Shown here piece after piece: positions 56,833-61,289 of a DNA stretch of 64,000 nt. The position numbers were made by a program, and so were the translations under genes. This DNA comes from Streptomyces spinosisporus (GTDB lineage Bacteria; Actinomycetota; Actinomycetes; Streptomycetales; Streptomycetaceae). The stretch spans positions 62,001-126,000 of the forward strand of contig NZ_JALDAX010000015.1 of assembly GCF_022698145.1 (NCBI RefSeq), read 5' to 3'. The notes beneath the pieces are model-generated. The model ran no database searches. It had not been told where the DNA came from and was given only the letters and a program-made list of their open reading frames with translations. Every line of letters begins with the position of its first letter. The first letter of the stretch is position 1.

Positions 56833-58188
56833 GTGGAGCCCGACCTGTTCACCGCCGCCGCAGAAGAACGCCAGGAGAAGGATCCGGCTGGAAGCCCCCT
56901 GGCCGTGCGGATGCGCCCGCGCACCCTCGACGAGGTCGTGGGCCAGCAGCATCTGCTCAAACCGGGCTCGCCCCTGCGCAGACTCGTCGGCGAGGGCGCC
57001 GGCGGACCCGCCGGACCGTCCTCGGTGATCCTCTGGGGCCCGCCCGGCACCGGCAAGACGACCCTGGCCTACGTCGTCTCCAAGGCCACCAACAAGCGCT
57101 TCGTCGAGCTGTCGGCGATCACCGCGGGCGTCAAGGAGGTCCGCGCTGTCATCGACGGCGCCCGCCGCGCCACCGGTGGGTACGGCCAGGAGACCGTCCT
57201 CTTCCTCGACGAGATCCACCGCTTCAGCAAGGCCCAGCAGGACTCCCTGCTGCCCGCGGTCGAGAACCGCTGGGTGACCCTGATCGCGGCGACGACGGAG
57301 AACCCGTACTTCTCGGTGATCTCCCCGCTGCTGTCCCGCTCCCTCCTGCTCACCCTCGAACCCCTCACCGACGACGACATCAGAGGACTGCTGAAGCGGG
57401 CGCTCGGCGACGAGCGGGGCCTGAAGGACGCGGTCACCCTCCCCGAGGACACCGAGGACCACCTTCTGCGCATCGCCGGCGGCGACGCACGCCGCGCCCT
57501 GACCGCACTGGAGGCGGCGGCCGGCGCCGCCCTGGACAAGGGTGAGACGGAGATCTCCCTGACGACGCTGGAGGAGACGGTCGACCGGGCGGCGGTGAAG
57601 TACGACCGCGACGGCGACCAGCACTACGACGTCGCCAGCGCCCTCATCAAGTCCATCCGCGGCTCGGACGTGGATGCCGCGCTGCACTACCTGGCCCGCA
57701 TGATCGAGGCCGGCGAGGACCCCCGCTTCATCGCCCGCCGCCTGATGATCTCGGCGAGCGAGGACATCGGCCTCGCCGATCCCAACGCACTGCCGATCGC
57801 GGTCGCCGCCGCCCAGGCCGTCGCCATGATCGGCTTCCCCGAGGCCGCCCTCACCCTCAGCCACGCCACCATCGCCCTCGCCCTGGCCCCCAAGTCCAAC
57901 TCCGCGACGACGGCGATCGGGGCCGCCCTGGAGGACGTGAAGAAGGGACTGGCCGGCCAGGTGCCGCCCCATCTGCGCGACGGTCACTACAAGGGCGCCG
58001 CCAAGCTCGGCCACGCGCAGGGATACGTGTATCCGCACGACCTGGCCGAGGGCATCGCCGAGCAGCAGTATGCCCCGGACGCCCTCAAGGACCGCGAGTA
58101 CTACACGCCGAGCAGACACGGCGCGGAGGCAAGATACGCGGACGCGGTGGAGTGGACCAGGAAGCACCTCGGTCGCAGACGGTCCTGA
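56833..58188 (+). CDS. rarA: Replication-associated recombination protein A (MgsA/WRNIP1-like AAA+ ATPase)
   Basis: A 451-aa AAA+ protein acting at stalled replication forks, probably with [26 protein letters not shown] begins the conserved region; Walker [12 protein letters not shown], Walker [13 protein letters not shown], sensor 1 [13 protein letters not shown], sensor 2 near [12 protein letters not shown]; the C-terminal tetramerisation region includes [29 protein letters not shown] (quoted here in part: [17 protein letters not shown]). GTG 56833 fits both the family N-terminus and the -10 box. Confidence 0.94.
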
Positions 58189-58489
58189 GCACCCTGTAGA
58201 CTTCGCCGAAGTGCCGAGTCCCGTGCCGTCAGAGCGGGTCATCCGGCCGGAGCCCCCAGGGGTTCCAGGAGCGTCGCGCACCGTCGAACGGTGTCGCGGG
58301 CAGCCCACCACCACCCGTCCCAGGACGGGAGAGGTCGGTGGGCCACTCGCGTGCTGCACGTATGTGCCCAGACCAGGGGAGCGGCTGCCCACCGAAGTCC
58401 AGCAGGACGAGGAGGGATTCCCCGGCTGCGGATGCGACCTCCCTTAACCCTGACAAGCCGAAGAAACTTCAGAGAAGAGACTAAAGACA
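58189..58489 (+). promoter_or_regulatory. Structured 0.3-kb leader of rpsD
   Basis: This 301-base stretch has no gene. A -10-like TAGACT at 58197-58202 would give a leader of about 280 nt. It can fold CACCG/CGGTG (58279-58283 with 58289-58293, extended by GCG/CGC), and a nested structure in which CCCACC (58304-58309) pairs with GGTGGG (58337-58342), enclosing CCCGTCC/GGACGGG (58314-58320 with 58323-58329). The ribosome-binding site (AGAGAAGAG) is close to the GTG. S4 is a known autoregulator in other bacteria, so this may be its target. Confidence 0.5.
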
Positions 58490-59104
58490 GTGGCGAACCA
58501 GTCCCGCCCCAAGGTCAAGAAGTCGCGTGCCCTCGGCATCGCGCTGACCCCGAAGGCCGTCAAGTACTTCGAGGCCCGTCCCTACCCGCCGGGTGAGCAC
58601 GGCCGCGGCCGCAAGCAGAACTCGGACTACAAGGTCCGTCTGCTCGAGAAGCAGCGTCTGCGCGCGCAGTACGACGTGTCCGAGCGCCAGCTCGTCCGCG
58701 CCTACGAGCGTGCCTCCAAGGTCCAGGGCAAGACCGGCGAGGCCCTGATCATCGAGCTCGAGCGCCGTCTCGACGCCCTGGTCCTGCGTTCGGGCATCGC
58801 CCGCACCATCTACCAGGCCCGTCAGATGGTCGTGCACGGCCACATCGAGGTCAACGGCCAGAAGGTCGACAAGCCCTCCTTCCGCGTCCGTCCCGACGAC
58901 GTCGTGATGGTCCGCGAGCGCAGCCGTGAGAAGACCCTCTTCTCCATCGCCCGCGAGGGCGGCTTCGCCCCCGAGGGCGAGACCCCGCGCTACCTCCAGG
59001 TGAACCTCAAGGCCCTGGCATTCCGCCTGGACCGTGAGCCGAACCGCAAGGAGATCCCGGTGATCTGCGACGAGCAGCTCGTCGTCGAGTACTACGCCCG
59101 CTGA
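58490..59104 (+). CDS. rpsD: 30S ribosomal protein S4
   Basis: A 204-aa primary 16S rRNA-binding protein and small-subunit assembly initiator. It begins [16 protein letters not shown], with [26 protein letters not shown] and the S4 RNA-binding domain [27 protein letters not shown]. The four-Cys zinc motif found at the N-terminus of many bacterial S4 proteins is absent, so this is the zinc-independent (C-minus) form. It is not part of the alpha ribosomal operon; it stands alone behind a long leader. GTG 58490. Confidence 0.97.
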
Positions 59105-59135
59105 TCACCAGCAGGCGGTAGCACCACGCACCACC

Positions 59136-61289
59136 TCAGCCCGCCGTCTCCCCGCCCTTACGGGCGCGGGAGGCGGCGGGTTCGTGCATGCCGGCACCCG
59201 CCGACGGGTGCCGGACCACCTCCCGCGGCGACGGCACGGCCTGCAGCGGCCGCTCCAGCGCCCGCGAGACGGCCGCCTCCCGCACCAGCCGTTCCCCCTC
59301 CGCCACGCACTCCTCGTAGCGTGCGTCGCCGAGGAGCTCCCGGGCCGTCGCCTCGCACAGCTCGTGCGGGGCGTTGTAGTGCGCCGAGCCGAACAGCGGC
59401 AGGCCCACCGACGGCCACATCCTCGCCGCCGCGCCCTGCAGCACCGCCGCCTCCGCCGCATCGCCCTGCGCGACCGTGACCAGCGCCAGCAGCTCCACCG
59501 CCAGCACCGAGCCGAGCAGATCGTGGAAGGCATGGGCGCCGGTCAGGCATTCGGCCAGCAGGGCGCGCGCCCGCGCCAGATCGCCCTCCGCCCAAGCCGC
59601 GTACGCCAGGACGTACAACGCGTAGCCCCGGGTCCACCGCTCGCCGTGGTCCTCGCACACCCGCCGTACGTCCTCGCACAGCCGTACCGCGTCCGGCAGA
59701 TCGCTCTGGAACGCGCGCGTCATCGCCAGCTCCACCTGGCACATCAGGACATTGCTGTTGAGCTCGCCGATCTCCTGGTAGCGGTCCAGCGCCGAGCGCA
59801 GCAGCCGCTCGGCGCGCGCCATGTCGTCGCTGACCAGGGCCAGGCATCCGGCGCGGTGCTCCGCGTACGCCACCGCCGTGGGGTCGCCGGAGAGCTCCGC
59901 CTCCTCCCGGCACTCCTGCAGTGCGGCCAGCGCGGGCACCGTGTCGCCCTGGAGGATCGCCACATAGCCGAGCACCCACAGGGCCTTCAGCCGGGACTGC
60001 TCGTGCCCGGCGTCGAGGCGCACCACCTGCTCCAGCCAGTGCCGCCCCTCCGACAGCCGCCCGCAGCCCGCCCAGTGGAACCAGAGCGAGCCCGCGAGGT
60101 ACTGGCCCAGATGCGCCTCCTCCGGCTCGTCGAGACAGTGCTCCAGAGCACTGCGCAGATTCGGCAGCTCCGCCTCCACGCGCGCGGCCACCTCCGCCTG
60201 GCGCGGCGAGAACCAGTCCAGCTCGCACCAGGTGGCAAGGCCCAGATACCAGTCGCGGTGGCGCCGCCGCAGCCGGGCCGCGTCCCCTGTCGCCTCCAGC
60301 CACTCGGCGCCGTACGCACGCACCGTGTCCAGCATCCGGTAGCGCACGCCCGCCGGTGTCTCCTCGCGTGCGACCACCGACTGCGCGAGCAGTTCGGTGA
60401 GCACGTCCAGGACGTCGTCGGCCTTCAGGCCGTGCCCGCCGCAGACGTACTCGGCGGCCTCCAGGTCGAACCGTCCGGCGAACACCGACAGCCGCGACCA
60501 CAGCAACCGCTCCCGGGGAGTGCACAGTTCATGGCTCCAGCCGATGGCCAGGCGCAGGGTCCGATGGCGGGGCAGCGCAGTGCGCTCGCTGCCGGTCAGC
60601 AGCCGGAAGCGGTCGTCCAGGCGCTGCAGCAGCTGCGCGGGGGACAGCGCCCGCAGCCGCCCCGCGGCCAGCTCGATCGCCAGCGGGATCCCGTCCAGGC
60701 GCCGGCACACCTCGCGCACGTCCGGGCCGTCCGCGACCGCCGGCTGCTGTTCCGCCGCCCGGTCCAGCAGCAGTTCGACCGCCTCGTCCTCGCCCAGCGG
60801 CGCCAGCGGGAAGACCCGCTCGCCCGCCACGCCCAGCGGCCGGCGCCCCACCGCGAGCACCCTCAGCCCGGGCACCTGCCGCAGCAACTCGTCCACCAGC
60901 GCGGCACACGACTCCACCAGATGCTCGAACCCGTCCAGGACGAGCAGCAGTTGGCGGTCGGCGAGATGCGCGCGCAGCATCTCGAGGGGCGCCCGCGTCG
61001 TGTGGTCCGTCAGCCCCAGCGCCTCCACGACCGCGTAGTCCACGAACTCCGGATCGTGCACCGGCGCCAGCTCGACGCGCCAGACCCCGTCCCGCGGCGC
61101 GCACCGTGCGGCGGCCCGGGCCGCGAGCCGCGACTTGCCGACCCCGCCCGCGCCCGTCACCGTCACCAGACGTCCGGCGTCAAGCACCTGCGCCAGCCCG
61201 GAGAGTTCGGCCGATCGCCCCACGAACGCGTTGAGTTCCAGAGGCAGATTGCCGTCCGCGAGGCCCCCGCCGGGTTGATGGTTCCGCAT
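59136..61289 (-). CDS. P-loop NTPase/TPR regulator-like protein without a visible DNA-binding domain
   Basis: A 717-aa STAND-type protein. The N-terminus PLELNAFVGRSAELSGL leads into the NTPase (Walker A TGAGGVGKSRLA, Walker B QLLLVLDGFEHL, VLAVGRRPLGVAGE, GIPLAIELAAGRLRALS), a winged-helix region (HRTLRLAIGWSHELCTPRERLLWSRL is summarised as WSHELCTPRERLLWSRLSVF), and a long TPR array (residues about 380-690). It ends in a short tail PSPREVVRHPSAG without the LuxR helix-turn-helix that related regulators carry, and no BTAD or OmpR domain stands at the N-terminus. ATG 61289 has TACGCT 9 nt upstream and no ribosome-binding site, so it may be leaderless. Confidence 0.85.
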   Translation of the reverse strand: MRNHQPGGGLADGNLPLELNAFVGRSAELSGLAQVLDAGRLVTVTGAGGVGKSRLAARAAARCAPRDGVWRVELAPVHDPEFVDYAVVEALGLTDHTTRAPLEMLRAHLADRQLLLVLDGFEHLVESCAALVDELLRQVPGLRVLAVGRRPLGVAGERVFPLAPLGEDEAVELLLDRAAEQQPAVADGPDVREVCRRLDGIPLAIELAAGRLRALSPAQLLQRLDDRFRLLTGSERTALPRHRTLRLAIGWSHELCTPRERLLWSRLSVFAGRFDLEAAEYVCGGHGLKADDVLDVLTELLAQSVVAREETPAGVRYRMLDTVRAYGAEWLEATGDAARLRRRHRDWYLGLATWCELDWFSPRQAEVAARVEAELPNLRSALEHCLDEPEEAHLGQYLAGSLWFHWAGCGRLSEGRHWLEQVVRLDAGHEQSRLKALWVLGYVAILQGDTVPALAALQECREEAELSGDPTAVAYAEHRAGCLALVSDDMARAERLLRSALDRYQEIGELNSNVLMCQVELAMTRAFQSDLPDAVRLCEDVRRVCEDHGERWTRGYALYVLAYAAWAEGDLARARALLAECLTGAHAFHDLLGSVLAVELLALVTVAQGDAAEAAVLQGAAARMWPSVGLPLFGSAHYNAPHELCEATARELLGDARYEECVAEGERLVREAAVSRALERPLQAVPSPREVVRHPSAGAGMHEPAASRARKGGETAG

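Follow-up and report, generated by a model that had tools for sequence, protein, structure and literature searches.

Here, we describe an RNA structure newly recognised in the predicted 5' leader of the rpsD mRNA within a 64,000-nt stretch of Streptomyces spinosisporus DNA (the window); it consists of a 5' hairpin and, after it, a five-helix junction. An autogenous S4 leader fits best with near-invariant leader letters, a lone ribosomal gene and the sole S4 of the genome. We consider it probable that S4 binds this leader and feeds back on its own synthesis, a reading drawn from gene association, the sole-S4 link and precedent.

A 301-nt spacer on the + strand (58189-58489) separates the rarA stop codon from the rpsD GTG start at 58490 and holds, from 5' to 3', a TAGACT -10 box by the rarA stop, the 5' hairpin, the five-helix junction (58268-58442) and a short spacer leading to the rpsD GTG (Table 1). 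By protein comparison, the window S4 is missing the four N-terminal cysteines of Cys4 S4 (protein P0001). Eighty Streptomyces loci were chosen by S4 protein similarity, and their rarA-rpsD spacers were aligned with that of the window (n=81); rarA lies upstream of rpsD in all 80 loci fetched, with rarA-rpsD gaps of 277-471 nt.

The -10 consensus of S. lividans is reported as TAnnnT (PMC8079986), and with a permissive pattern 88 of 93 loci (a raw count) have a TAnnnT element at 60-118 nt before P1; with a stricter pattern, 39 of 93 do. No TTGACA-type -35 element stands beside TAGACT, and a sigma-70 scan returned no promoter pair. The best explanation is a start predicted from the -10 box at ~58209, which would give rpsD a leader of about 280 nt, and the conserved box argues against a transcription start near 58490.

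Table 1. Features of the rarA-rpsD spacer and its flanking genes in the window.
Feature	Positions	Strand	Details
rarA stop codon TGA	58186-58188	+	ORF list; rarA ORF is 56833-58188
-10 box TAGACT	58197-58202	+	TAnnnT pattern; predicted transcription start ~58209
P0, 5' hairpin	58211-58248	+	GUCCCG 58218-58223 pairs with 58235-58240 (CGGGAC), plus outer base helix
P0b, variable hairpin between P0 and P1	58249-58266	+	Consensus fold
P1 5' strand GGAG-C-GUCGC, junction-closing helix	58268-58277	+	Pairs with 58434-58442
P2 hairpin GCACCG/CGGUGU	58278-58294	+	58278-58283 pairs with 58289-58294; UCGAA loop
P3 and P3a, length-variable tip	58295-58351	+	P3 58295-58300/58346-58351; P3a 58303-58312/58333-58343
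P4, short hairpin GCAC/GUGC	58356-58367	+	98.9% of cells paired
P5 with inner helices P5a, P5b	58368-58430	+	Conserved CGGCU 58382-58386 on 5' side of internal loop
P1 3' strand GCGACCUCC	58434-58442	+	Pairs with 58268-58277
AGCCG, conserved spacer motif	58456-58460	+	Candidate pseudoknot partner of CGGCU 58382-58386
rpsD, ribosomal protein S4, Cys-less type, 204 aa	58490-59104	+	GTG start; Pfam PF00163, PF01479

In the consensus fold, P1 closes the five-helix junction and P2, P3, P4 and P5 branch off from it. Across the 81 Streptomyces sequences, majority identity (block means) is 0.96-0.98 at 58266-58312, 58333-58390 and 58414-58444, with means of 0.65 and 0.71 in two length-variable tips and 0.76 in the spacer before rpsD. 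The six core pairs of P0 are retained in 83-86 of 86 rows around a loop of variable length (the window copy has one mismatch), and P0b is weakly conserved (mean majority identity 0.65 at 58251-58265). The bulged CACCG/CGGTG hairpin of the initial annotation is real and corresponds to P2, with a short UCGAA loop in place of the bulge, and the nested two-helix element described there is P3/P3a, 58295-58312 with 58333-58351. A constitutive structural leader that acts in mRNA stability, RNase processing or ribosome standby without a feedback ligand would also be compatible with a hairpin that immediately follows the predicted start and with a structure that is long and GC-rich; such a leader is unlikely, since the near-invariant junction and loop letters (0.96-0.98) exceed the needs of a generic stem.

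Comparative evidence for the leader structure is much stronger than single-sequence folding, which gives a modest z of -2.21 (2 of 100 shuffles equal or better). Alignment A2, which was fitted to the structure, comprises 93 hand-chosen loci from five Streptomycetaceae genera, all matching a covariance model of the leader core. In its 92 distinct rows, 97.2% of cells are paired and both sides have changed at 31 of 55 pairs; the covariation score is 0.186, compared to 0.094 when shuffled and 0.023-0.053 when partners are slid by 1-3 columns. Counted on a tree of the rpsD coding sequence, which is independent of the leader, A2 contains 67 pairing-preserving double changes at 30 of 55 pairs, against a mean of 3.4 and a maximum of 11 for random re-pairing of the same columns. 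Because A2 was structure-fitted, the count was redone on a sequence-only MAFFT alignment, in which P5a and P5b are poorly aligned, yielding 31 double changes against a re-paired control mean of 3.8 and maximum of 13.

Pairing extends to 99.9% of cells in P1 and 99.4% in P2, where 2 of 6 pairs show double changes. On A2, double changes occur at 11 of 16 pairs in P3/P3a, 9 of 12 in P5, 2 of 4 in P5a, 4 of 4 in P5b and 1 of 4 in P4 (0 in P4 on the sequence-only alignment). RNAalifold on A2 recovers P1, P2, P3 and P3a, and does not recover P5 as modelled. The initial annotation had named covariation among aligned leaders as the check on its stems, and the refuting outcome, no covariation, did not arise: the 67 and 31 double changes stand above their controls. 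Against this, an R-scape-like simulation test over all column pairs found 0 significant pairs. Restricted to the proposed pairs, the same type of test found 9 of 55 significant. Compensatory changes far in excess of controls on two alignments led us to reject a chance structure, and they make chance or DNA-level conservation without RNA structure extremely improbable, even though a single-sequence z of just -2.21 and the non-significant all-pairs test would accord with it.

The covariance model was searched in 150 Streptomycetaceae genomes and in a class-wide sample of 296. The leader is not specific to Streptomyces, as had first been suggested: it is present in 75 of the 150 genomes, each with a single match, from 5 of 17 genera; of these, 19 are among the 38 genomes of the window's own genus in that sample and the others belong to four further Streptomycetaceae genera. 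In the class-wide sample, 17 of 296 genomes matched, all from the window's own genus, in a search that scored just 9 candidates per genome, so that weak relatives could be missed. Plain DNA matching detected the leader in 25 of 61 Streptomyces, of which three short, weak matches (L103-L105) were excluded from use. Among non-matching loci, filter-off model searches found no full leader element, and the two weak hits, in L176 and L177, are confined to P1.

Rfam 15 gave no match at gathering score in the whole window and none up to E 5 in 57500-59500; a known Rfam family was rejected, with weak P35, miRNA and snoRNA hits falling far under their gathering scores. The rpsD start lies 35-49 nt downstream of the leader in 92 of 93 loci, and the exception, L133, is at a contig end. 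The proposal of a long structured leader before rpsD is confirmed in the form of a covarying element that accompanies rpsD and has no Rfam 15 entry matching it.

A terminator scan of the leader found nothing terminator-like on the + strand, which makes translational control more likely than attenuation. The same result bears on a separate trans-acting small RNA transcribed between rarA and rpsD, for which the leader's own promoter-like box could be read as support; with no + strand terminator-like site between leader and rpsD, a spacing to the rpsD start codon fixed at 35-49 nt and, inside that spacer, a conserved motif, this is very unlikely. Under S4 autoregulation, transcription from the TAGACT promoter would yield an rpsD mRNA with the leader, and surplus S4 that is not absorbed by 16S rRNA would bind the five-helix junction. 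The S4-bound RNA, possibly with AGCC(G) in a pseudoknot on the P5 loop, would then impede 30S loading at rpsD and lower S4 synthesis.

The candidate pseudoknot involves AGCC, the sole 4-mer present in 92 of 92 spacers (AGCCG in 75 of 92). AGCC(G) could pair with the conserved CGGCU in the loop of P5, and such a candidate pseudoknot would draw the junction near the ribosome site. Complementarity of AGCC to CGGCU is conserved, with TGGCT in three rows, two of which have AGCCA. The fifth, outer pair is C-G in 73 rows, C-A in 14, T-A in 2, C-T in 1 and T-G in 1, and the C-A mismatch in 14 rows means that covariation gives the pseudoknot no support. The AGCC stretch also resembles an iron-box half (GGTGAGCC) of related loci, so its conservation could be partly historical. 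An anti-Shine-Dalgarno role for the P1 3' strand (ACCUCC) was considered and dropped, as by eye it suits ATG-type leaders and not the weak ribosome site of the window.

Mimicry of the S4 site of 16S rRNA by sequence was rejected as not above chance in a k-mer comparison with the 16S 5' domain of a relative (G013), with 18 shared 7-mers vs 13.0 expected (p 0.14), 5 shared 8-mers vs 3.3 (p 0.27) and no shared 9-mers; this counts against the S4 reading. In 16S, the h18 region likewise contains the pentamers CGGCU and AGCCG, which may be coincidence.

The leader occurs solely where the Cys-less S4 is the only S4 found. Of the 150 Streptomycetaceae genomes, 0 have both the leader and a Cys4 S4, 75 have only the leader, 56 only a Cys4 S4 and 19 neither. 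Cys4 S4 is thus found in 0 of 75 genomes with the leader and 56 of 75 without it (Fisher p 8e-25, shared descent ignored), and the leader in 0 of 56 genomes with Cys4 S4 and 75 of 94 without. Leader loci occupy about four places on the rpsD tree, so that the p value overstates the independent evidence for the exclusion; the distribution may have come about by transfer, by replacement or by repeated loss. In some leader-less genomes, a second S4 carries the Cys4 motif; in G159, it lies within an rpsM-rpsK-rpsD-rpoA operon.

Upstream of rpsD, all 28 leader-less Streptomycetaceae loci of a first set (L176-L202, L204) have an iron-box-like palindrome 13-39 nt before the gene, matching a DtxR/IdeR-type iron-box consensus at 15-18 of 19 positions. 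Such a palindrome was also found before rpsD in 11 of 14 loci of other families (range L217-L230) and in 16 of 20 loci of a second set. The best match in all 130 leader loci examined is at most 12 of 19, and 1 of 1000 shuffles reached 15. The site is mostly located between rpsD and a divergent gene, which in L176 has a DUF2470 domain; in L202 it lies directly between rarA and rpsD. Its sequence and position suggest iron control of the Cys-less S4, of the divergent gene, or of both.

These sites make a metal signal conceivable for the leader as well, and a large multi-helix junction with near-invariant loops is riboswitch-like. A cis-regulatory RNA for rpsD that senses a signal other than S4 (another ribosomal protein, a metal or a metabolite) is nonetheless rather unlikely, as the leader precedes rpsD alone (92 of 93 loci) and never a transport or biosynthesis gene, and ribosomal leaders usually stand before a lone ribosomal gene.

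Other conserved sequences were observed upstream of rpsD. A second conserved stretch, up to 330 nt upstream of rpsD and antisense to the start of the divergent gene, has TACTCT-like promoter letters at its head and occurs in L176-L180, L182-L184, L187, L188, L190, L193, L194, L233, L235, L236, L240, L242 and L250. L233, which has no iron box and has apparently lost the start codon of the divergent gene, still carries the stretch. Eighteen of these 19 loci are from genomes without a detected Cys4 S4 (the exception is L250, of G200). The stretch is a candidate second rpsD leader. L219 and L221 (family f13), which have no iron box, have in common GTGCAGCCCG...CGCTGCAC in the 300 nt before rpsD, which may represent yet another kind of leader. 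L232 (G068) and L234 (G074), both without a Cys4 S4, have neither an iron box nor the five-helix leader before rpsD.

Two resemblances were noted by eye between window positions 58428-58460 and L176-L202. The conserved spacer (GGUGAGCC/AAGCCG) resembles an iron-box half, and the P1 3' strand (AUGCGACCUCC) resembles the reversed start region of the divergent gene (ATGCGATCTCC). Both lie about as far from rpsD as their counterparts do, so the iron-box/divergent-gene region may be where the leader originated. A possible history, which we hold with less than even confidence, is that the lone Cys-less S4 was at first a spare, responsive to iron, for the metal-binding S4 of the alpha operon, under a DtxR/IdeR-type box shared with the divergent DUF2470 gene. 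Once a streptomycete lineage had lost the alpha-operon S4, the spare would have become the only S4, and an autoregulatory RNA leader would have taken over its control from an iron repressor (the five-helix leader in some lineages, the second antisense stretch in others). If true, this would be a natural swap from transcriptional to RNA control upstream of one and the same ribosomal gene. The Cys4 S4 of bacteria may bind an iron-sulfur cluster; our literature search for such a cluster in Cys4 S4 found no support.

The E. coli alpha-operon S4 pseudoknot (Rfam Alpha_RBS) sits before rpsM and governs an operon. The window leader would likewise provide S4 control via a leader, possibly with a pseudoknot near the ribosome site, and differs in its lone rpsD, its sequence and topology, and its lack of a match to an Rfam model. 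In B. subtilis, rpsD is also a lone gene. The B. subtilis/Firmicutes rpsD leader and the Fusobacteriales S4 motif, which are S4-bound or predicted to be so, would share S4 binding with the window leader. S4 leaders are known in other phyla, and a GUAA rRNA-like motif is common to those of Firmicutes and Fusobacteriales (PMC7247131). By sequence reading, GUAA is not present in 58204-58489; the window leader instead has a five-helix junction closed by the conserved P1. Predicted S4 leaders were found by covariation in Bacteroidia, Clostridia and Flavobacteria (Eckert and Weinberg, 2020; PMC7247131), and those of Bacteroidia and Flavobacteria are hairpins before rpsD-rpoA-rplQ, unlike the junction of the window.

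The available part of the table of Eckert and Weinberg (2020; PMC7247131) includes no actinobacterial S4 leader, and that of an S. lividans cis-element table includes no rpsD leader. A study of 50 genomes, including S. avermitilis, reports 30 ribosomal leader candidates and names rpsJ in its available text (PMC11109978); one of the 30 may be the leader described here. Within the literature searched, no earlier S4 leader is named for actinobacteria, so that the present one would be the first; its architecture differs from those of known S4 leaders. Like the window S4, the C- (metal-independent) ribosomal protein paralogues include an S4 without the Cys4 site (PMC3087516). Zur sites near S4 paralogues were sought and none found, according to the available part of that study (PMC3087516), whereas the control found here would be exerted by an RNA leader, with an iron-box-like site in its place in related loci. 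The present loci thus offer a lead on the question of S4-paralogue regulation raised there (PMC3087516), and the division of loci into those with an iron-box-like site and those with an RNA leader is relevant to how a ribosomal protein that serves as a backup turns into the essential one.
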